From: Agrococcus pavilionensis RW1
GTDB taxonomy: Bacteria > Actinomycetota > Actinomycetes > Actinomycetales > Microbacteriaceae
Direction of reading: 5' to 3'
Length of the DNA stretch: 64,000 bases
Assembly: GCF_000400485.1 (NCBI RefSeq)
Contig: NZ_ASHR01000028.1
Coordinates: forward strand, 1 to 64,000
Part shown: piece after piece, positions 5,586-60,414 of the stretch
How positions within the stretch are numbered: the stretch's first letter is position 1
How the letters are laid out: each line of letters begins with the position of its first letter
The notes under the pieces: model-generated
The model's database searches: none
Told to the model about the DNA's origin: nothing
The model's input: the letters and a program-made list of their open reading frames with translations, nothing else
Position numbers and translations under genes: made by a program

Positions 5586-7394
5586 CTAGACGAGCGACTC
5601 CCGCCACGCCCGGTGCAGCGACGCGAACTTCCCGCCCTGCTCGATGAGCTCGGCGGGCGAGCCGTCCTCGATGATCCGGCCGTGCTCCATCACGAGCACC
5701 CGGTCGGCGATCGCGACTGTCGAGAGCCGGTGGGCGATGATGATCGCCGTCCGGTCGGCGAGCAGGGTCGTGAGGCCCTCCTGCACGAGCCGCTCCGAGG
5801 GGATGTCGAGCGACGCGGTCGCCTCGTCGAGGATGAGCACGCGCGGGTCGGCGAGGAACGCGCGCGCGAACGAGAGCAGCTGCCGCTGGCCCGCGCTCAC
5901 GCGGCCGCCGCGCTTGTTGACGTCGGTCGCGTAGCCGTCGGGCAGCGCCTCGATGAAGCCGTGGGCGCCGACCGCGCGCGCGGCCGCCTCGATCTCCTCG
6001 TCGCTCGCGCCCGGCTTGCCGAGCGCGATGTTGTCGGCGACGGTGCCCGAGAAGAGGTACGCCTCCTGCGTCACCATCACGACCGCACGCCGCAGGTCGT
6101 CGTTCGCGAGCTCGCGCAGGTCGACGCCGTCGAGCTTCACCGCTCCCTCGGTCGGGTCGTAGAAGCGCGAGACGAGCTTCGCGAGCGTCGACTTGCCCGC
6201 GCCGGTCGTGCCGACGAGCGCGATCGTCTGGCCCGAGGGGATGTGCAGGTCGAAGTCGGGCAGCACGACCTTGCCGTTGCCGTACGCGAAGCGCACCGCG
6301 TCGAAGTCGATCTGCCCGCGCGAGGCCGGCAGCGCCTTCGGCTGCACCGGCTCCTTCACCGTCGGCTCCTCCTCGAGCACGCCCGAGATCTTCTCGAGCG
6401 CCGCCGATGCCGACTGGTAGCCGTTGAAGAACATGCCGATGCCCTGGATGGGCTGGAAGAAGTTGCGCGCGTAGAGGGCGACGCCGAGCAGCGCCCCGAT
6501 CTGCATCGAGCCCTCGACGACCCGGAGACCGCCGACGATCACGAGCGTCGCGATCGTGACCGCGCCGATCATCATGATCCCCGGCTCGTAGATGCCGAAG
6601 ATGTTGATCGTGCGGTAGTTCGCGTCGCGGTAGTCGTCGACGCGCTCGTCGAACTCGCGCTGGTTCGCGGCCTCCTTGCGGAACGCCTTCACGGCGCGGA
6701 TGCCCGTCATGGTCTCGACGAAGTGCACGATCATGCGCGCGCTCGTCGTGCGGGTCTCGCGGAAGAGCACCGTCGAGCGCACCTGGAACCAGCGGGTGAG
6801 GATGATCGCGGGGATGAGCGCGATGCCGATGATCGCGCCCGAGAGCGGATCGAGCAGCGTCATGGCGCCCGCGGTGAAGCCCATGATGAGCACGCCGCGC
6901 ACGAGCTCGTTGAGCCCCTGGTCGAGCAGGTCGCGGATCGACTCGAGGTCGCTCGTCTGCCGCGCGATGATGCGGCCCGACGTGTAGGACTCGTGGAACT
7001 CGAGGCTCAGCCGCTGCGCGTGCGCGAACAGCCGCCGGCGCAGCTCGTAGAGCACCGTCTGGCTGATGCGCGCGATGCCGACGGTGTAGAGGTACATCAG
7101 CACGCCCGCGGCGATCGCCGCGACGATGTAGACGAGCGTCGCGACCCACAGCGGCATCCAGTCGCCCTGCTCCATGATCGCCGGCAGGCCGACGTCGATG
7201 CCGTAGGCGATGAGCAGCGGCCCCGCGATGTTCGCGGCGGCCGCGATCACGACGAACAGCAGCGTCACGACGACGCGGCCGACGTGCGGCTTCAGCAGCG
7301 AGCCGAGCAGGCGCCGCGAGCGCGCTCGGATGGCCTTCGACTCGGCCTTGGTGTAGTCGGTGCGGTCCTCGCCCTGCACGCCCTGCACGCTCAT
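5586..7394 (-). CDS. ABC exporter half-transporter, consensus Walker B subunit
   Basis: 602 aa; six-helix exporter domain over roughly residues 30-325, then the ATPase domain. Walker A is GTTGAGKST, the signature is degenerate (VSAGQ instead of LSGGQ), Walker B is [12 protein letters not shown] with the catalytic Glu, and the switch His is in AHRLST. It pairs with the upstream gene as a heterodimeric exporter: the degenerate signature here complements the Asp-for-Glu Walker B there, giving one dead and one live ATP site. The start ATG overlaps the upstream stop (ATGA) and has GGAGGTG before it. Substrate unknown; lipids, peptides or drugs are typical of the family. Confidence 0.92.
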
Positions 7395-9262
7395 CGGGAC
7401 ACCTCCTCGGACTCGGCGTCGAGCTCGTCGAGGTCGATGACCTCCATTGAGCCGGTGACGGCGGCGATCGACTGGCGGTCGCGCTCGGCCTCCTCGAGGC
7501 TCGAGATCACGTAGCGGTAGTGCTCGCTGCGCGCGAGCAGCTCGGAGTGGGTGCCGACGTCGACGATCCGGCCGTCGCGCATGAGCGCGACGCGGTCGGC
7601 GAGCTGCACCGTGCTCGGGCGGTGGGCCACGATGAGGGCGGTCGTGCGCTCGAGCACGTGCCGCAGCGCATCCTCGACCTGCGCCTCCGTCTCGACGTCG
7701 AGCGCCGAGAGCGGGTCGTCGAGCACGAGCACCGCGGGGTCGGCCGCGACCGCGCGCGCGAGCGCGAGGCGCTGCCGCTGGCCGCCGGAGAGGGAGAGGC
7801 CCTCCTCGCCGATCTCGGTGTCGAGCCCGTCCGGCAGGTTGCGCGCGAAGTCGGCCTGGGCGATCGCGAGGGCGCGGTCGAGGGCCTCCTCCGACGCATC
7901 CGGCGCGCCCATGAGCACGTTGTCGCGCACCGACGCCGAGAAGAGCGTCGCGTCCTCGAACGCCATCGCGATGTGCGTGCGGAGCTCCTCGAGGGTCAGG
8001 TCGCGCACGTCGACGCCGTCGAGCAGCACGCGCCCGCCCGTGACGTCGTAGAGGCGGGTCGGCAGCGCCGTGAGCGTCGTCTTGCCCGAGCCGGTGACGC
8101 CGATGAGCGCCATCGTCTCGCCCGGCTCGATCACGAGGTCGGCGCCGTCGACGAGGTCGCGCTCGTGCGGCTGCGCGTCCTGGTAGCGGAAGTGCACGCC
8201 CTCGAACACGAGCTTGCCCTTCGGCTCGCGGATCGTCTTCGGCTCGGCCGGGTCGACGATCGTGTTCTCGCTGTCGAGGATCTCGTGGAAGCGGCGGGAT
8301 GCGTTCGACGCGTCGATGAGGAACGCGAACAGGAAGCCGATCGACTCGATGGGCCAGTTGAGCACCATCGCGACGGCGAAGAACGCGAAGAGCGTGCCGA
8401 CCGTGATCTGGCCGCTCGCCGCGAGCCAGACGCCGAGGAAGAGGCAGACCGCGTACGAGACGTACGGCACGATCGTCAGCCACATCCACAGGTTGCCGTC
8501 CATGCGGGCCTTGTCGATCTCGGTCTCGCGCAGCCGCTTCGCCTGGTCGGTGAAGCCCTCGAGCGCGTGGCGGCCGCGGCCGAAGGCCTTGAGCACGCGG
8601 ATGCCGTGGATCGACTGCTCGACGGTCGTCGCGAGGTCGCCCGCCTGGTCCTGCGCCGAGCGCGAGATCGAGAAGTAGCGGCGCTCGAAGCGCAGCGCGA
8701 CGAGCACGATGGGCGCCGAGAGCACGACGAAGACGCCGGCGAGCAGCGGGCTCCAGTAGAAGAGCACGCCGATGCCGACGACGAGCGTGATCGAGTTGAC
8801 GACGAGCAGCGGCGCGCCGAAGGCGGTGAAGCGGCGGATCATGCCGAGGTCCTGCACGGCGCGGCTGAGCAGCTGCCCCGACTGCCAGCGGTCGTGGAAC
8901 GCGACGGGGAGGGCCTGCAGCTTCGCGTAGAGCGAGCGGCGCATCGACGCCTCGACCTTCGTCGAGGGCAGCGTCACGAGCAGCCGCCGCATGTAGACGA
9001 AGAACGCCTCGCCGAGGCCGAGCGCGAGGATCGCGAGGCCGACCGGCCAGACCGCGGCGGCGTCGGCGGCGGCGAGTGGGCCGTCGACGAGCGCGCGCAT
9101 CGCGATCGGGGTCGCGAGGCTCAGCAGCGCCGAGAGCAGCGCGGCGAACGTGCCCCACAGCAGCCGCGGCAGCACCGGGCGGAGGAAGGACACGAGCCGC
9201 GAGAGCGCGCGCAGGTGGCTGACGGGCTTGGTCTCGGTCTGATCCGGAGACGTCGAGGACAT
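7391..9262 (-). CDS. ABC exporter half-transporter, degenerate Walker B subunit
   Basis: 623 aa; membrane domain over roughly residues 25-330 and a C-terminal ATPase. Walker A is GVTGSGKTT, the signature LSGGQ is intact, but Walker B reads [12 protein letters not shown], with Asp in place of the catalytic Glu, as in the non-hydrolysing site of heterodimeric exporters. The switch His is present (AHRPST). About 40 residues follow the ATPase domain, ending in an acidic tail. It is first in the two-gene operon, preceded by a 137-nt gap and a 23-codon leader ORF with its own strong ribosome site, which hints at translation-dependent control. Confidence 0.92.
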
Positions 9263-9398
9263 GAGGGGATCCTTCGCGGTCGCAGGCGGGGTGGGCCGGC
9301 GATGGTGGGGCGCGACGATGGTCGCTGGGGTCGAGCGGCGTCAGCGGTCGTGACGCGAGGGCGAGCGTGGCTCGCGGCGGGCGATGCCCCGTCTGCTC

Positions 9399-9470
9399 CT
9401 AGGCGGCGACGCGCGCGGGGCGGACGCGGAGGGCGGGGGCGGCAGCGATCGCGGTGGTCGTCGTGCTCAT
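9399..9470 (-). CDS. 23-aa putative leader peptide upstream of the ABC exporter
   Basis: A 24-codon ORF from ATG to TAG encoding a peptide that begins MSTTTTAIAAAP and ends RVRPARVAA. It has AGGAGG 5 nt before its ATG, a better ribosome site than many genes here, and lies about 40 nt downstream of a recognisable promoter. The 137 nt between its stop and the exporter contain a GCGTCA-N7-TGACGC hairpin (9338-9356). The layout fits an attenuation leader, as known for some antibiotic-responsive ABC genes. Translation and regulatory role are inferred, not shown. Confidence 0.45.
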   Translation of the reverse strand: MSTTTTAIAAAPALRVRPARVAA

Positions 9471-9518
9471 GGCATCCTCCTGGCGTCGGCAGCACCCGGT
9501 CGGTGCAGACAGCCTTCA

Positions 9519-9548
9519 ATCCTAAGCAGACTCACAGCGGCGTGTCTA
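9519..9548 (-). promoter_or_regulatory. Promoter of the leader ORF/ABC exporter transcript
   Basis: On the minus strand, -35 TAGACA (9543-9548) and -10 TAGGAT (9519-9524) are separated by 18 nt. The -35 overlaps the stop codon of the upstream P-loop kinase gene. A start near 9512 would leave about 40 nt of leader before the 23-aa ORF. Confidence 0.55.
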
Positions 9549-10139
9549 CCGCTGATCGGCGTTTCCCGATGACGTCGCGTCGCGCGCACCGGGACCGAGC
9601 GCGTCGAGCAGCGCGTCCGCGTCGGCGGGGGTGCTGAGCAGCAGCACGGGCGGCTTCGTCGCGTCGGCATGCCAGGCCCGCATCCGCGCGCGCTTCGAGC
9701 GCCACGAGCGGAAGTGCCAGACGAGGATGGAGTCGCGGGAGAGCACGGCGCGGACGGTCTCGACGTTGCCGTTGCACACGAGCTCGCGCGTCCGCACGCG
9801 CCGGAGCGTGCGGCGCAGCAGCCGCGCGAGCGACACGAGCCGCGGGTAGTCGAGGCCGACGATCACGTCGACCCGCGCGAGCGCCGCCTCGTTGTGGATG
9901 CCGTAGACGGTGTCGGCGACGTACGCCTCGCGCTCGAGCACCGGCAGCACGCGAGCGTCGAGCTCCGGGCGCGGCGGCTGCACCCAGCCCGGATCCCAGC
10001 AGAGCTCGTCCATGAGCACGACCGGCAGGCCGAGCCGCTCGCCGAGCGCGGTGGCGAGCGTCGACTTGCCTGAGCCGGTCGCGCCGAAGCACAGCACGCG
10101 GCGGGCGCGACGCACGTCGTCGATCGTGCCGGCGCTCAT
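9546..10139 (-). CDS. P-loop nucleoside/adenylate-kinase-like protein (topology-modulation/FlaR type)
   Basis: 197 aa, cytoplasmic. Walker [10 protein letters not shown] lies near residue 20, followed by [18 protein letters not shown], typical of small P-loop kinases annotated as adenylate kinase or DNA topology modulation protein. A conserved tail with [11 protein letters not shown] fits that family. Acceptor substrate unknown. The ATG at 10139 is the first in-frame start giving a normal N-terminus; longer frames upstream run into repeat DNA. Its stop abuts the promoter of the exporter leader. Confidence 0.75.
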
Positions 10140-53835: not shown

Positions 53836-54680
53836 CCGCGACCGGTGCCACGACCACCCCGGTGCTCGAGACGAAGGAGCTCGTCGCCGGCTACCTGCCG
53901 GGGGTCAACATCCTCAACGGCTGCTCGATCGTCGCCAACCAGGGCGACCTCATCGGCATCATCGGACCGAACGGCGCCGGCAAGTCGACGCTGCTCAAGG
54001 CCGTCTTCGGCCAGGTGAGCATCCGCGAGGGGTCGGTGCTCCTCAACGGCGACGACATCACGGGGCTCAAGGCCGACAGGCTCGTGAGCAAGGGCGTCGG
54101 CATGGTGCCGCAGAACAACAACGTGTTCCCCTCGCTCACGATCGAGGAGAACCTCGAGATGGGGCTCTTCCAGGAGCCGAAGATGTTCAAGGAGCGCTTC
54201 GAGTTCGTCGGCGCACTCTTCCCGGAGCTCGTGAAGCGGCGCAAGCAGCGCGCGGGCAGCCTCTCGGGCGGTGAGCGCCAGATGGTCGCGATGGGCCGCG
54301 CGCTCATGATGGACCCCGCGGTGCTGCTGCTCGACGAGCCGAGCGCCGGCCTGAGCCCCGTGCGCCAGGACGAGACGTTCCTGCGGGTCGCCGAGATCAA
54401 CAGCCACGGGGTCACGATCGTGATGGTGGAGCAGAACGCGCGGCGCTGCCTGCAGATCGCGCACCGCGCCTACGTGCTCGACCAGGGCAAGGACGCCTAC
54501 ACGGGCACCGGCCGCGAGATGCTGAACGACCCCAAGGTCATCCAGCTCTACCTCGGCACGCTCGCGACGGATGTCGAGGAGAAGGCGCGCACGTCGGCGA
54601 CCGAGACTGTCGGGCCGACGCCCGAGGTGGCGACGACGACCGCTCCCCCGCTCGCGGCGGAGGAGCCGAAGGCGCCGTAG
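53832..54680 (+). CDS. livF: Branched-chain amino acid ABC ATPase LivF
   Basis: 282 aa. Walker A GPNGAGKST, signature LSGGERQMVAMGRALM, Walker B VLLLDEPSAGLSP and VEQNARRCL switch, all typical of LivF. A ~40-residue Thr/Ala/Glu-rich tail follows the ATPase domain. Last gene of livHMGF; a 14-bp terminator hairpin follows. The binding protein LivK is not in the operon but 2.2 kb away on the other strand. Confidence 0.95.
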   Translation: MTATGATTTPVLETKELVAGYLPGVNILNGCSIVANQGDLIGIIGPNGAGKSTLLKAVFGQVSIREGSVLLNGDDITGLKADRLVSKGVGMVPQNNNVFPSLTIEENLEMGLFQEPKMFKERFEFVGALFPELVKRRKQRAGSLSGGERQMVAMGRALMMDPAVLLLDEPSAGLSPVRQDETFLRVAEINSHGVTIVMVEQNARRCLQIAHRAYVLDQGKDAYTGTGREMLNDPKVIQLYLGTLATDVEEKARTSATETVGPTPEVATTTAPPLAAEEPKAP

Positions 54681-54694
54681 GTCGATCGGCGACG

Positions 54695-54724
54695 AGGAGC
54701 CCGCTGCGCGCAGCGGGCTCCTCT
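54695..54724 (+). terminator. Intrinsic terminator of livHMGF
   Basis: GAGGAGCCCGCTGC-GC-GCAGCGGGCTCCTC, a perfect 14-bp arm palindrome followed by TCTCG, 14 nt after the livF stop. Confidence 0.9.
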
Positions 54725-55175
54725 CTCGTGGCGGCATGGTGCGCGCTGGCTTTTCGCCGGAGACCGCGCGGTGCTGGGCAGTGCCCGCCGTCAGCTTCGT
54801 CGTCCTCACTCCGCGCAGCTCGGACGAGCGCAAACAACCACAAGGCCAGCGGCCCAGTGGTTGTCTGCGCCGTACATCGGCAGCCGTTCCCGTCGAACTC
54901 GATCGGGCCGGAGAGAGCGTGGTGGTTCAACTCCCGCCGACGGCGATCGGCTGCGAGCACTCGGCGGCGCTTGCGTCGGTGCACTTCTCGCCGCTCCTCA
55001 AGACCGACCGCGCGCGGTCGCGCATGGTGACGGGGTCGGTGCTGCCGACCCGCGCCGTGCTCACGCGAAGAAATACGTCGTTACTGGAACAAAATGCTCG
55101 AGCGCACCCTCGGTTACCTGCTAAGAACGCTTTCAAGCCGCAATGTCGCGGCCCGAAACCACGGAGGTATCAATC
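54725..55175. other. Non-coding, AT-richer spacer between liv operon and IS island
   Basis: No convincing gene. The open frames here are short, Arg-rich and lack ribosome sites. ACAACCAC...GTGGTTGT forms an 8-bp inverted repeat at about 54834-54864. From about 55065 the base composition shifts (AAGAAATACG, GGAACAAAATGC), marking entry into the island; the promoter of the small secreted protein at 55176 should lie here. Confidence 0.5.
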
Positions 55176-55492
55176 ATGAGAGTCAAGCGCCAGCGGGCAC
55201 TAATGATGGGCCCCATCTTGGCCGGAGCATTCATCGGTGCACTAGCCTTCGTTGGCGCAACCCCTGCAATGGCGGGCGGGGAAGGCTGCTGGACTGCAAC
55301 CAACGGGACGCGGTCGAAGGCACCTGCCGGTACTTGACCGGAGGCGACACTCAGTTCCGAATCGCAGTGGGATGCGAACGGCCAACTGGCCACTTCGTCA
55401 TCAACTATTCACCTTGGCGGGTGTCGGGGGCAGCCGTCGTCTACTGCCAGGCCGGCTACACCGTGGTGTCCAGGACCTTCCACTTCCGCTGA
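55176..55492 (+). pseudogene. Small secreted Cys-containing protein, frameshifted copy
   Basis: The first 53 codons give a good signal peptide (MRVKRQRALMMGPILAGAFI..., cleavage near AMAG) and GEGCWTATNGTR, then a stop at 55335-55337. The frame shifted by -1 continues with EGTCRYLTGGDTQFRIAVGC, PWRVSGAAVVYC and a stop at 55490-55492. That continuation lines up with the intact protein at 59112-59432 (Cys, then TG.[YF]R[VI]A[LV].C, then PW...S.V.C), so a single-base deletion near 55315 broke an intact ~105-aa gene. GGAGG lies 8 nt before the ATG. No slippery heptamer is seen. Function unknown. Confidence 0.65.
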
Positions 55493-55619
55493 GAAGTCCG
55501 AACGAGAGGCGGGCGCTACATGGGACGACGCCGCGCGTCCCCCTCTCGTACGTCTGGAGCGCCAATCGTTCCGCACGGTGCCGTGACTCTTGGCGGCAGC
55601 AGTCGTCGAAGCGCCCAGC

Positions 55620-55739
55620 TACCTCTTCCTGCGCCGAGCGGGCGCGTTCTTCGCCCCGCACGGCATCGCCTCAATCGAGCGCGTCATGACCGACAACGCC
55701 TGGGCTTACCGCCACTCGCTAGGTGAGATCTGTGAGCAG
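55620..55739 (+). pseudogene. IS481-family transposase fragment
   Basis: About 40 codons reading FLRRAGAFFAPHGIASIERV and MTDNAWAYRHSLGEICEQ, which match the catalytic-core region of IS481-type DDE integrases (MTDNxxAYR carries the second Asp). No start, no terminal repeats and no C-terminal part. It is cut off exactly where the IS256-type left end begins, so the second element probably landed in the first. Confidence 0.6.
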
Positions 55740-55745
55740 GTCGAG

Positions 55746-56566
55746 GGCCCGTCAAGCTGTTTGTGTAAGCGGCGCGTTCCGGTGTGGTTAGAGGTGGCGG
55801 TTGATGCGCTCGGGGTAGACGAGCGACAGCTGCTACAGAGCTTGCTTCCAGTTCGTGGTCACTTGTCCCTCGACGAGCCTGCCTTCGGCTTTACGCTGCT
55901 CTGATCGCCGGCCCTTCTCCTTCGCGCGGTCTCTGGCTCGTTTGCCCTCGATCTCGCAGATCGCCAACCAGAGCAGCTTCGCGACCGGCTGGTCGTCGGG
56001 GGAAGTACCCGCGGTTCTTGGTCACCTTCCGCAACTGGAAGTTCAGCGACTCAATCGAGTTGGTCGTGTACATCACCCGCCGCAGCTCAGGCGGGAAGGC
56101 GAGGAAGGGCGTGAACCGCGCATACGCGTCCCGGAACGTCTTCACCGCCGACGGATAGCGCTTGCCGAGCTTCGACGCCTCGAACGCGCGCAGCTCCGCC
56201 AGCGCGGCGTCCGCGTTCGCGGCCTCGTAGATGAGCTTGAGCGCGGCGGAGACGGCCTTGCGGTCCTTGTAGTTCACGAACTGGTGCGCGGCCCGAATCA
56301 GGCGCACGACGCACGTCTGGATGGTCGCTTCCCGCCAGGTCGCCTCACCGCCTCGGGGAAGCCGGTCAGCCCATTGCAGCACTCGATCAGCACGTCGTCC
56401 ACGCCGCGGTTGACGAGCTCGGCGCAGACGGCCGCCCAGCACTTCGCGCCCTCGGTGTCCTGCACCCAGATGCCTAGCTCATCCTTGATGCCTTCAACGT
56501 CCACGCCCACTGCGATATGCGCGGCCTTGTTGCGCACGTGCCCACCGTCGCGGACCTTCACGACCC
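55746..56566 (-). pseudogene. IS256 (mutator)-family transposase remnant, 5'-deleted and frameshifted
   Basis: From 56566 down: VVKVRDGGHVRNKAAHIAVGV, LGIWVQDTEGAKCWAAVCAEL, NGLTGFPEAV (one frame); a one-base loss near 56346 then shifts to QTCVVRLIRAAHQFVNYKDRK, RFTPFLAFPPELRR, YTTNSIESLNFQLRK; a further shift near 55960 leads to the terminal YPERINRHL and TAA stop at 55788-55790. GTCAAGCTGTTTGTGTAAG at 55751-55769 looks like the left terminal repeat; no matching right end is found. The N-terminal half is gone, and 56567-56836 holds no recognisable coding sequence. Confidence 0.8.
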
Positions 56567-56836
56567 GAAGGCCCTCACCGGCTCGGTGCTCCACCGCCGT
56601 CAGCTCTCGGCAACGGTGTTGAAGGACGGCCTGCCCACACCGCCTTCCGGCCATCCGCCACGCGCGGATGGACGGCAACACTTCCGATCCTTCGTCGCCC
56701 GGATGCGAACCCTGGCCGCTGTCACAAGCACACCCCACCCTACGGGCGGCGAAGTCACGTGGGGCCTGCGCATCGCATCGAGATCGCGAATGACCCCAGA
56801 GCCAAGGTGGGCACGCCAGGAGCAGAAACGACAACA

Positions 56837-56871
56837 CTCCCCGGAACCTACACGAGCCGGGTTCCGGGGAG
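56837..56871 (-). terminator. Intrinsic terminator of livK
   Basis: CTCCCCGGAACC and GGTTCCGGGGAG form a 12-bp stem with an 11-nt loop, followed on the minus strand by a T-rich TGTTGTCGTTTC. It lies 18 nt after the livK stop. Confidence 0.9.
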
Positions 56872-56889
56872 CGAGCCTGCCGCAGCAGA

Positions 56890-58167
56890 TCAGTCGAGCG
56901 AGCCCTCCTCGACTCGGAGCAGCGAGTACTGGTTGTCGGCGCCGTACTGGTAGATGCCGATGAAGGCTTCCGACGGGTCGCCGTTCTCATCGAACTCCAC
57001 CGGTCCGGACGGGCCGTCATAGTCAATGTCCTCGCCGTCGGCGATCAGCTGAAGGCACTCGGCGACCTCGGTGCACTTCGTGCCCTCGGTAGAGACCGCC
57101 TGCATGTTGTCGCGGATCGTCTCGGCGTCGGCGCTGCCGCCCGTCGCGGCCGCGAGGGCCGCCAGGATGACCGCGTCGTACGACTCGGCGCCGTACGAGA
57201 AGTCCTGCAGGTTGGGGTCCTGCTCGAGTAGCCGCTCGCGGAACGTCTCGTTCGTCGGGTCACCGGGGAGCGTGCCCTTCGCGCCGTCGAGCGTGCCCTC
57301 GGGGAAGTTGTAGTCGTTCGACAGGTTGCCGTCGACGAGGTACATGCCTGAGGCCGGGAAGCCCTGCGTCACGAGCTCCGGCACGATCTGCGCCGTTTCG
57401 GCGAAGGCGATAATGGCGATCGCGTCGGGCTGGCCGGCCATGATCTCTTGCACCTGGGTCGTGAAGTTCGTGTCACCGGGGTTGTAGAGCTGGCTGCCGG
57501 TCACGGTACCGCCCGCGGCCTCGACCGCCTCGGTCGCGCTGCTCTCGAGCCCAGTGCCGTAAGGATCGTTGATCGTGATGAACCCTACGCTGGCCGCTCC
57601 GTCGCTCGTCATCAGGTTGCCCAGAACGCGACCCTGCATGACGTCGGACGGAGCCGTTCGCCAGTAGAAGCCGTCGTCGGGGTAGTCCGTGAACTGCGGT
57701 GATGTGTTGGCCGGGGAGATCTGCACGACGCCCGCATCGACCAGTCGGTCGATGAACGTCAGGGAGACGCCGGACGACGCGGCGCCGACGACGACATCGG
57801 CTCCCGCAGAGATGAGCTCGTTCGCCGACTGGGTCGCGATGTCGGTGGTCGTGTCACCGGAGTCGCGGTGTTGCACGTCGACCGTGAACTCGAAGCCAGC
57901 GGCCTCGAGGTCGGCCGCCGCGAGGTCGACGCCGGCGAACTCGGGCGGTCCGAGGAACGCGAGGTTGCCGGTCTGGGGCAGGATCGTGCCGACCACGAAC
58001 TCCGTGTCGACCTCGCCGTTGCCCTCGGGTCCGGCCGAGCCGGATGGCGTGGCGGCGCCGCCGCCGCCGCCGGAACATGCGGCGAGCAGCAGCACGCCAG
58101 CGGTCGCGGCGCCGAGCGCCGCGAAGCGCCGGGGCTTCGGCCCCTTGGTGCGAAGGAAGGACTGCAT
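56890..58167 (-). CDS. livK: Branched-chain amino acid ABC substrate-binding lipoprotein
   Basis: 425 aa. Lipobox LLLAAC (Cys31), a Gly/Ser linker, then a type I periplasmic-binding fold: VVGTILPQTGNLAFLGPPEF, ISAGADVVVGAASSGVS, TSDGAASVGFITINDPYGTG and the C-terminal FDENGDPSEAFIGIYQYGADN, each typical of LivK. It should deliver Leu/Ile/Val or similar to LivHMGF, encoded 2.2 kb away on the other strand with IS debris between. ATG at 58167 follows GAGGAG. A GlnR-like box lies about 86 nt upstream. Confidence 0.93.
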   Translation of the reverse strand: MQSFLRTKGPKPRRFAALGAATAGVLLLAACSGGGGGAATPSGSAGPEGNGEVDTEFVVGTILPQTGNLAFLGPPEFAGVDLAAADLEAAGFEFTVDVQHRDSGDTTTDIATQSANELISAGADVVVGAASSGVSLTFIDRLVDAGVVQISPANTSPQFTDYPDDGFYWRTAPSDVMQGRVLGNLMTSDGAASVGFITINDPYGTGLESSATEAVEAAGGTVTGSQLYNPGDTNFTTQVQEIMAGQPDAIAIIAFAETAQIVPELVTQGFPASGMYLVDGNLSNDYNFPEGTLDGAKGTLPGDPTNETFRERLLEQDPNLQDFSYGAESYDAVILAALAAATGGSADAETIRDNMQAVSTEGTKCTEVAECLQLIADGEDIDYDGPSGPVEFDENGDPSEAFIGIYQYGADNQYSLLRVEEGSLD

Positions 58168-58252
58168 TGTGCTCCTCAATTGCGTGGGACGCGCGCTGGC
58201 GCGCGCGTTTGACCCACAGTAAGCGAGCATCGCGACGATTTCGGCGCGATCG

Positions 58253-58270
58253 CGTTACGTCCTGGTAACG
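58253..58270 (-). promoter_or_regulatory. GlnR-like nitrogen-control box upstream of livK
   Basis: CGTTAC-N6-GTAACG is a perfect inverted repeat. On the minus strand it reads GTTAC-CAGGAC-GTAAC, matching the actinobacterial GlnR half-site pair GTnAC-N6-GnAAC. TACTGT at about 58218 could be the livK -10, placing the box where an activator would bind. Confidence 0.5.
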
Positions 58271-59111
58271 GTCTTGACGCACACAACCGCGCTTGCGCTC
58301 GGCCACGGCGATTCCTCGGCCGCCCCTGAGCGGCGATCCGGCCGCGGGCGGTAAGGGGCGTGGCTGCGGTTGTGCGCGTGCGCGCCGGTTCAACGCGGTC
58401 GCACGTTGCGGCGGCGGTAAGCCCGAGCGATCGTCGGCCCTCGGCCGAGCTTGGCGCCAACGATCACGCTAGAGGCTTCCTCGAAGCCGGCCGCCAGCTG
58501 TAGCTGCTCCGACTTCGGCCGGGGCGTCGCAATCAAGAACCCGCATAGGCTGTGACCTCATCCACGCGTTCAGCGAGGACCGTCCCTGGCTGCACCGCCG
58601 ATGACCGCGCCGCCCACGCCAACGCATCGTGCAACGCCGACGCACATCGACTCCGCCGCCTACGACGCCAACACATCGAGCGGCGCATGACGACAACACG
58701 TACGCCTGCCGATGCGCCCTGCATCACGTCATCGTCGAGTGCGGTCCGGCAAGTCTCTACACGCTCTCACTACCTCCCGATTAGCGACGTGGAGCGTCTC
58801 AACAGCGCCCGAACTTGATGAGCGAGGGGGACTTCCACCCTTGAAACCATTGGTGCCGCTGCCCCTCTCTCTCGGAATCCGAGCTACCCCACGCAGTGTC
58901 GCATCACGCCGTCGCAGCTGCCCGTATCTCGCACTCTGCTCCAAGGACACGCCCGGATATCGCCGGACCGCACTCAACGCCTGATTAACGAGAGCAGCTA
59001 TCGGTGCATGCTTGGTCAGCAAGGGGCACGGACCGTTCTCCGACCGTCTCATCTGGCAGACGGTCGGGACGCACGCGGTCGATGAATGGAAGCCTCGGCA
59101 CGAGGCCAATC
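58271..59111. other. AT-richer intergenic region with a decayed IS481-like fragment
   Basis: No intact gene seen on either strand. At about 58672-58760 (plus strand) IERRMT is followed, after a frame slip, by DNTYACRCALHHVI, resembling the MTDNxxAYR core of IS481 transposases; the rest has no coding character. Arms GACCGTTCTCCGACCGTCTC near 59031-59070 include a short GACCGTCTC...CAGACGGTC inverted repeat. The region lacks the strong third-position GC of its neighbours, pointing to decayed mobile DNA. Confidence 0.4.
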
Positions 59112-59432
59112 TCAAGTGGTGCGTTGATAGGTCACGGACAGAGGCGTGTCCTTGTTCACGCAACGCACTGCCGAGTAGATTGAGCCATCGCTTGAGGGCC
59201 CGCGCCAAGGACCGGTCGCCACGTACGTCCCATATGCATACCTGCAGGTCAGCGCCACCCGGTACGAGCCCGTTCCCGAACTGCAGTGCGCGCGTCCTTC
59301 GCCGGACACCATGTATGCGGAGCAATTCGACGGGTACGCTTCGGCGGGCTCCTCGCCTGCGGCAAAGAAGACGAGCGATGCACCACCCACAATGAGCATG
59401 TAGACGGAAATTCGGTGGAGAAGTCGATTCAT
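59112..59432 (-). CDS. Small secreted protein with four conserved Cys
   Basis: 106 aa. Signal peptide of about 36 residues (MNRLLHRISVYMLIVGGASL, cleavage near AEAYPS), then a ~70-residue domain: NCSAYMVSGEGRAHC, SSGTGSYRVALTC, TGPWRGPSSDGSIYSAVRC, which would give two disulphides. The same pattern occurs in the broken gene at 55176-55492. The style (YRVxxxC...GPW...SxxxC) resembles small secreted proteins of unknown function in actinobacteria. There is no Shine-Dalgarno; TATGTT lies 6 nt before the ATG, so a leaderless mRNA is likely. Codon use is less GC-biased than its neighbours. Confidence 0.7.
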   Translation of the reverse strand: MNRLLHRISVYMLIVGGASLVFFAAGEEPAEAYPSNCSAYMVSGEGRAHCSSGTGSYRVALTCRYAYGTYVATGPWRGPSSDGSIYSAVRCVNKDTPLSVTYQRTT

Positions 59433-59520
59433 GGCCCGAACATAGGCCGTCCCTAGTTCGCCGTCAAGGCCTGTTTCGGCCACCCGACCATCAAGACCAT
59501 CGACGCGTCTCTGCGGACAT

Positions 59521-60414
59521 TCACCGAGCGCGAATAGCGCGCGCCACTAGAAGGTCGATTGAGACCAGCACGAGCGAGAGCCAGACGAGCGCGAAACCGA
59601 TCCAGCGCTCGAGCGGCATCGGCTCGTGCATGACGAAGGCGCCGAAGAGGAAGGAGATGATCGGCGCGAGGTACTGCGTGAAGGCGAGCGCGGAGAGCGA
59701 GATGCGGCGCGCGGCGGCGGAGAAGGCGAGCAGCGGCAGCGCCGTCACGAGCCCGAGGCCGACCGTGGCCCAGATGCCGGTCGTGCCCGCTGCGCCGACG
59801 GTGACGCCGTTGATGCTCACCGCGATGCCGAGCATGATGAGGGACGCCGGGATGACGGCCGTCGTCTCGATCGTGAGGCCGGAGAGCGCATCCACCGATC
59901 CCCCGACGCGCTTCTTGATGAGGCCGTAGACGCCGAAGGAGATCGCGACGGTGAGGCCGAACCACGGCACCTCGCCGTAGCCGATGATCATGACGAGCAC
60001 GCCGACCGCGCCCAGACCGACGGCGACCCACTGGGCCGGGCGCAGCCGCTCGCCGAGGAAGAGCACCGCGAGCACGACCGAGACGAGCGGATTGAGGAAG
60101 TAGCCGAGGCTCGTCTCGAGCACCTTGTCGGCGAGGACCGCGACGATGAAGGCCGTCCAGTTGACGAGCACGACGTGGCCTGCGAGCACAAGCGTCCACG
60201 TGTCGCGCCGGTTGCGGAGGATCGCGCGCAACCGCACCCATCCGCGCGTCATCGCGACGAGGCCGAACGCGACGACGACCGACGCGAGCACCCGCCAGCC
60301 GATGAGCTCGAAGCCGTCGATGCCCTTGGTGAGCTGCAGGTAGACGGGGACGACGCCCCAGAAGGCGTAGGCGAAGACGGCGTACCAGACACCGGTCGTG
60401 CGCTGCTCGGGCAT
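59521..60414 (-). CDS. rarD: RarD-type EamA-family transporter
   Basis: 297 aa, ten predicted helices as two EamA repeats. RarD signature: YAFWGVVPVYLQL near the N-terminus, then VNWTAFIVAV, SLGYFLNPLVSVVLAVLFLGE and QYLAPIISFLFGAFVMHEP. The family is annotated as chloramphenicol-sensitive/amino-acid or drug-metabolite permeases; the substrate is unknown. ATG at 60414 is preferred to the upstream TTG because AAGGGG lies just before it. Downstream of groES, separated by a terminator hairpin. Confidence 0.9.
   Translation of the reverse strand: MPEQRTTGVWYAVFAYAFWGVVPVYLQLTKGIDGFELIGWRVLASVVVAFGLVAMTRGWVRLRAILRNRRDTWTLVLAGHVVLVNWTAFIVAVLADKVLETSLGYFLNPLVSVVLAVLFLGERLRPAQWVAVGLGAVGVLVMIIGYGEVPWFGLTVAISFGVYGLIKKRVGGSVDALSGLTIETTAVIPASLIMLGIAVSINGVTVGAAGTTGIWATVGLGLVTALPLLAFSAAARRISLSALAFTQYLAPIISFLFGAFVMHEPMPLERWIGFALVWLSLVLVSIDLLVARAIRAR

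Follow-up and report, generated by a model that had tools for sequence, protein, structure and literature searches.

Two small genes, here called A and B, lie on either side of livK in a 64,000-nucleotide stretch (the window) of the 2.88-Mb draft genome of Agrococcus pavilionensis RW1 and, as read from their sequences, encode small Sec-secreted proteins of an actinobacterial family that has not been curated. The homology of their domains is well supported. The mature proteins, 70-75 residues in length, are predicted to form a six-stranded β-sandwich with two disulfides, which among about 1000 re-aligned PDB chains resembles lactococcin 972 most. By analogy, these proteins might act as disulfide-stapled, lactococcin-972-like secreted antagonists. 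This is our best explanation, and we hold it tentatively, with somewhat less than even confidence.

Gene B (positions 59112-59432, minus strand) is the intact member. It starts with the ATG at 59432 and encodes 106 amino acids in a single open frame, namely a signal peptide, which by reading is cut after AEA, and a four-cysteine domain (73 residues in the model). The signal peptide is followed by Cys1, Cys2, an arginine, Cys3, a tryptophan and Cys4. In gene A, these elements are split over two frames of the plus strand. The first frame (55176-55337), which is preceded by a ribosome-binding site (GGAGG upstream), starts at 55176 and encodes the signal peptide and Cys1 before it reaches a stop at 55337. 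The second frame (55319-55492) extends from Cys2 through Arg, Cys3, Trp and Cys4 to the C-terminal FHFR. The earlier proposal that one copy is inactivated agrees with this break between Cys1 and Cys2: gene A is inactive as assembled, and with one assembly at hand the break may reflect either a mutation in the strain or a mistake in assembly. Both genes are, as was claimed, AT-richer than the window as a whole (G+C 0.630 for gene A and 0.604 for gene B vs 0.723).

Direct pairwise similarity between the two proteins is weak (BLASTP E 0.002 and 0.003), and only the second of these alignments spans the shared core. The relationship was examined with a profile built from 23 members of other genera, containing no sequence from the window or from strain KRD186 (G049). 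Out of the 763 open reading frames of the window, gene B ranks first (E 3e-13) and the 3' piece of gene A second (E 3.4e-6), while the next frame has an E-value of 0.84 and the best reversed frame one of 0.15; these values carry the caveat that all 23 members had been recruited via profiles containing the gene A piece and gene B. The ranking bears out the description in an earlier note of two related small secreted cysteine proteins. The cysteine pattern quoted there holds approximately only, with DTQFRIAVGC in gene A standing for TGSYRVALTC in gene B and with unequal spacing from PW to the following Cys. Weak pairwise similarity and an approximate pattern are what would be expected if two unrelated cysteine-containing reading frames in IS-scarred DNA resembled each other by chance. 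We regard this explanation as refuted by the profile ranking, short of the circularity of recruitment, and thus as extremely improbable; it would also have to account for the relatives of gene A in the same livF-livK gap of KRD186 and for the confident models of gene B and of a gene A relative, which have the same strands.

The family extends far beyond the genus. A first profile found clear members in 25 of 345 genomes of the class at E 0.01, a second in 57 of 394 genomes (E 0.001; in part the signal peptide alone was matched), and a third, run on the order, in 34 of 327 at E 0.001. Thirteen and ten proteins that showed the four-cysteine core on inspection were retained from the two class searches, and only L180 and L181 were added from the order search. 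Signal-peptide-only and unrelated reading frames were left out, as were L108 (near-identical to L111), L115 (an ambiguous residue), a truncated copy in G248 that has no conserved Arg, L071 and L074, which look like diverged members, and L110, L112, L113, L118 and L119, in which the member does not match the core pattern. In the resulting alignment of 27 members, where gene A is represented by its 3' piece only, Cys2, Arg, Cys3, Trp and Cys4 are invariant in all 27 and Cys1 is present in at least 90%; the last Cys falls to at least 90% once two further members are added, and the invariance is partly built in because members were selected with the help of the core pattern. In the aligned full-length members, a charged start and a hydrophobic stretch lead up to small residues ahead of the first Cys, which reads as a cleavable Sec signal peptide.

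In a search of 299 genomes of the taxonomic family, the convincing relatives among the matches inspected are one of gene B, in G248, and two of gene A, in tandem in KRD186. A scan of the collection of species genomes for close relatives of gene B gave 96 pattern matches and no relatives. Gene B, the only member tried against a phage collection, has no match there, so that carriage by phages is unsupported.

Comparison with congeners shows how the two genes are placed. The stretch between livF and livK that holds gene A and the IS remnants (54708-56885) replaces 185 bp of the congener G265. It contains, between livF and gene A, a degenerate duplicate of the 3' part of livK (54858-55057, minus strand; 71% identical over 170 nt to the strain's own livK; repeats D1, D5 and D15). 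Downstream of gene A, an IS481-type transposase remnant (55625-55754, plus strand) matches, at 84-89% identity, stretches of two longer copies that the genome also carries, and rve/rve_3 was found in a longer copy of this element. An IS256/Mutator-type transposase remnant (55891-57026, minus strand) retains the C-terminal part only and lies in two frames, 55891-56442 and 56298-57026, which match Pfam Transposase_mut with E-values of 1.5e-26 and 5.7e-20 over positions 168-359 of the 379 in the profile. The intact livK-type binding protein gene (56890-58167, minus strand; Peripla_BP_6) is itself outside the system, and has a match in 23 of the 24 Agrococcus genomes, its own included. Gene B lies in another insertion (58364-59538), which separates livK from a rarD-like gene and is defined by comparison with G265, G688 and G690. 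The IS481 and IS256 remnants reported around both genes are thus both found beside gene A, but none was recognised beside gene B, where the family search among the frames of 58364-59111 came down to 58729-59325 alone and gave no match.

livF directly adjoins livK in seven of the eight congener regions that were compared. The eighth region is that of KRD186, where two intact relatives of gene A, in tandem and beside a DDE_Tnp_1 transposase gene, lie between them. The livF-livK gap is therefore filled in both genomes, and gene A, whose 3' piece has 47% and 41% identity with the KRD186 pair, probably shares its origin with that pair. These two strains are the only ones of the 24 Agrococcus genomes with core-bearing members; the other matches cover the signal peptide or contain stops. 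In a tree, gene A joins the two KRD186 genes with a support of 92/90, below the star of the tool, and gene B joins members of two other taxonomic families (95/93) on long branches; bootstraps in this tree are unsettled, with 3 of 28 inner branches starred. The earlier suggestion that the two genes are recent copies acquired together was rejected, as the separate insertions relative to G265 and the different branches both speak against it. To judge from this comparison, genes A and B probably represent separate lineages rather than a gene and its copy. Members occur in tandem in G049, G486 and G529, and a copy in G248 is truncated by an IS3-type element.

Gene B was also said to be leaderless. 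A promoter-like site, TTGACG-17-TATGTT (59439-59467, minus strand), ends 6 nt before its ATG, as such an arrangement would have it, and is the sole one in the 5.1 kb scanned (54600-59700). However, shuffled sequences give 0.6 such sites, and the match alone is therefore no proof of a promoter. A leaderless transcript of gene B, from a promoter read from the sequence, is plausible. A -10 element in the leaderless position is found in 2 of 28 family genes and a ribosome-binding site in 21 of 28, gene A included, which makes the arrangement of gene B unusual within the family.

The AlphaFold2 models of mature gene B and of a KRD186 relative of gene A have a pLDDT of 96.1 and 95.8, respectively, and the same six strands in the same order. 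In the first hairpin, residue 4 pairs with residue 17 in gene B, and residue 5 with residue 20 in the KRD186 protein. As derived from the strand limits, Cys1 is thereby placed opposite Cys2, as expected of a disulfide, and Cys3 and Cys4 are likely to form the second pair. The fold was compared with known structures in two ways. Foldseek against the PDB gave no match at E 0.001 for either model: lactococcin 972 (2lgn) has rank 30 by E-value for gene B (E 1.2, TM 0.53/0.57) and is absent for the KRD186 relative among the 50 matches listed. VIA-align 2 re-aligned Foldseek's top 1000 chains (about 1000 PDB chains) and placed 2lgn first for both models, with a Z of 5.5 and an rmsd of 3.2 over 60 of 66 residues for gene B, and a Z of 6.7 and an rmsd of 2.5 over 62 of 66 for the KRD186 relative, whose next match, at 5.4, lies 1.3 lower. 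The second match of gene B is Formosin D (9hkj; Z 5.2), which carries the PDB molecule name 'Lactococcin 972 family bacteriocin' and is absent for the relative among the 50 VIA-align matches listed; the open-access literature searched yielded no paper that treats Formosin D as a protein. None of these Z values reaches 8, and a common arrangement may therefore account for the resemblance. The search of structure databases that had been proposed thus points to lactococcin 972 by VIA-align but not significantly by Foldseek, and the term 'bacteriocin-like' used earlier fits the predicted fold and its best structural alignment.

Lactococcin 972-type proteins are β-sandwiches for which an interaction with lipid II and inhibition of septation have been reported (PMC11796350). 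The two families (PF09683 with 2lgn and 9hkj on one side, the four-cysteine proteins on the other) have in common a small, mature all-β domain, predicted in the latter, that follows a signal peptide. They differ in that the aligned stretch of 2lgn has no cysteines, whereas two disulfides are likely within the C..C..R..C..W..C core of the present family, and in that the lactococcin 972 operon includes a presumed immunity membrane protein and an ABC transporter, none of which was seen beside gene A or B. Membership by sequence was considered and had to be given up: PF09683 matches none of the 27 members at E 0.1 and nothing in genome G000 at E 0.001, and hhalign against actinomycete lactococcin 972 proteins aligns the signal peptide only, or nothing. 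With neither a sequence match nor a membrane-protein/ABC partner seen, the four-cysteine proteins may work like lactococcin 972, without being filed as members of its family. Among three genomes of the class that carry genes of the lactococcin 972 family, an ABC gene follows at a distance of about 2 kb in two; most members of the present family have no such gene.

If the proteins are lactococcin-972-like antagonists, the process could be as follows. Gene B is probably expressed, perhaps from the leaderless transcript. The four-cysteine protein would be exported, and would fold and oxidise outside the cell. It would then bind an envelope target on related cells, for which lipid II or another cell-wall precursor is the candidate by analogy, and the binding would hinder septum or wall formation in the neighbours. 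Self-protection would be either encoded elsewhere or not needed. We counted in favour of antagonism the conserved core, the predicted fold with its lactococcin 972 alignments, the ABC genes beside the members of G551 and G248, the scattered presence in the genus, the tandem copies, the broken frame of gene A and the IS3-type truncation in G248, and against it the failure of sequence membership, the null result of Foldseek, the Z values, the missing Arg of the truncated G248 copy and the scarcity of ABC neighbours.

The neighbourhoods were examined for partners. The earlier note advised looking for an immunity gene; none was seen beside gene A or B within the window. Within 6 kb of the members at 22 loci, no neighbour family other than ABC ATPases is common to more than two loci among the 60 rows listed. 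The liv ABC genes next to gene A are conserved amino-acid transport genes and occur without gene A or B in seven of the eight congener regions. Apart from livF, an ABC gene directly adjoins a member in 2 of the 22 loci, about the level of chance. In one of these (G551), an ABC ATPase gene starts 28 bp after the member and is followed by a gene for a 546-residue, likely membrane protein; in the other (G248), a trio consisting of a PG-binding fusion protein, an ABC ATPase and FtsX lies upstream of the member. The trio was rejected as a general partner: FtsX relatives are found in 22 of 159 genomes, and in one of the 22, G248, a member lies within 1.5 kb, as judged from 30 of the 36 rows, which were examined. 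The related loci L167 and L178 share much of their surroundings.

Neighbours that vary from lineage to lineage (ABC systems, a protease with a small protein, or no recognised partner), together with the abundance of members in large actinomycete genomes seen with the second profile, would suit an extracellular protein that has no victim, such as an envelope ligand, a component of a matrix or coat, or a signal. However, the scattered presence in Agrococcus, the copies in tandem, the breakage and the strong divergence are more in keeping with genes of conflict, or accessory genes, than with a structural role, and we consider a non-antagonistic role unlikely, though worth keeping in mind.

Some Streptomyces inhibitors block an extracellular protease or glycosidase. 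The four-cysteine protein could be such a secreted enzyme inhibitor, a disulfide-stapled sandwich that would need no immunity gene, and the lack, among the rows listed, of a dedicated partner gene common to the 22 loci agrees with this. In one lineage, mostly Streptomyces, a gene for a trypsin-like serine protease is followed by a member and then by a small, partly lipoprotein-like gene at four of four loci (L164, L253, L254 and L255). Three of these loci, on linear Streptomyces plasmids, were found using the L164 member, so that the four count as one lineage. The cassette is a weak lead that keeps an inhibitory or protease-linked role open, but of the 26 fetched loci searched, L164 included, L164 alone has the protease beside the member, and no such protease was seen beside gene A or B.

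Structure adds a second hint at inhibition. Tendamistat-type amylase inhibitors (PF01356) are small secreted actinomycete β-sandwiches whose two disulfides join Cys 1 to 2 and 3 to 4, and in this they resemble the predicted form of the four-cysteine proteins. Tendamistat (1hoe) is indeed among the VIA-align matches of gene B, but at rank 26 with a Z of 3.0, far below lactococcin 972; it is absent for the KRD186 relative among the 50 matches listed, and the tendamistat-type family has no Pfam match in any of the 27 members at E 0.1. The only inhibitor-type match of the members is SCIN, weak (E 0.031) and in 1 of 27, so that the family as a whole has no counterpart among the inhibitor families. 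Inhibition of an enzyme therefore appears rather improbable to us, more so than a role without a victim.

Nor does any other curated family fit the members as a group in the search of sequence databases that had been recommended. Each Pfam or NCBIfam model matches at most 1 of the 27 members and each PHROGs family at most 2, all weakly, and eight Pfam families are matched by any member at E 0.1. The best curated match, of Rpf to L083 (E 3.5e-5), lies in the signal-peptide region and has 23.5 bits vs a cut-off of 180. Crystall_2 (PF09076) covers the core of one member, L069 (E 0.0048; 17.1 bits vs a cut-off of 25). The β/γ-crystallin-type proteins, among which are a Streptomyces metalloproteinase inhibitor and a killer-toxin-like protein, are likewise all-β, but the other 26 members are unmatched at E 0.1. 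Searches of PDB sequences with gene B, the gene A piece and the family profiles gave nothing below E 0.5, and no description of the four-cysteine family was found among the titles and abstract starts of the open-access literature searched.

As no curated family covers the members as a group, annotation pipelines would miss these proteins; if they are antagonists, a widespread class of actinobacterial antibacterial proteins is being overlooked. In its broadest form, which we think doubtful, the antagonist reading would make them an unrecognised, Actinomycetes-wide family with the lactococcin 972 fold, too diverged for the sequences to show it. Its lineages would each be associated with an envelope module of another kind (ABC/FtsX, or protease and lipoprotein) and would turn over fast through insertions. 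The conserved Arg, Trp and four Cys are direct handles for tests, and a small, stable fold would be useful whether it binds a cell-wall precursor or inhibits a protease. On one of the Streptomyces plasmids, two annotated lactococcin 972 bacteriocins lie 1.1 and 2.2 kb beyond the protease cassette.

Directly 3' of livF in the window lies a perfect 15-nt inverted repeat (54694-54723), which is perhaps the terminator of the liv operon. Further along comes a second, degraded version of the 3' end of livK (54858-55057), situated about 2.1 kb away from the end of the intact livK. Either livK was therefore duplicated or the island was built by recombination at that site.

In genome G248, an IS3-type element truncates a close relative of the intact four-Cys gene of the window (locus L159:4387-5433). 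The mature protein would begin with AYPSSC, and the reading frame is interrupted shortly past the third Cys. Broken genes of the four-Cys family thus occur in more than one genome. The livK-rarD gap of three congeners carries, in place of the intact four-Cys gene found there in the window, a membrane protein of about 400 residues (L155:7567-9002, L157:7978-9391 and L158:1255-2632), which resembles an AI-2E-type transporter.

The livF-livK gap of Agrococcus sp. KRD186 also contains a secreted-looking protein (L151, about 9135-9767, plus strand), which is adjoined by an HTH_3 regulator and has no matches in Pfam. Its long, hydrophobic, Gly/Ala-rich C-terminus is similar to that of some bacteriocins.

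A cassette conserved in four other loci (L253, L254, L255 and L164) consists of a trypsin-like protease of about 780-930 residues, a four-Cys secreted protein and a small protein, two of the small proteins having a lipobox-like start. In L255, a plasmid of Streptomyces sp. NBC_01298, the four-Cys member is followed shortly downstream by two annotated lactococcin 972 family bacteriocins (6290-7674), with an ABC gene beyond them.
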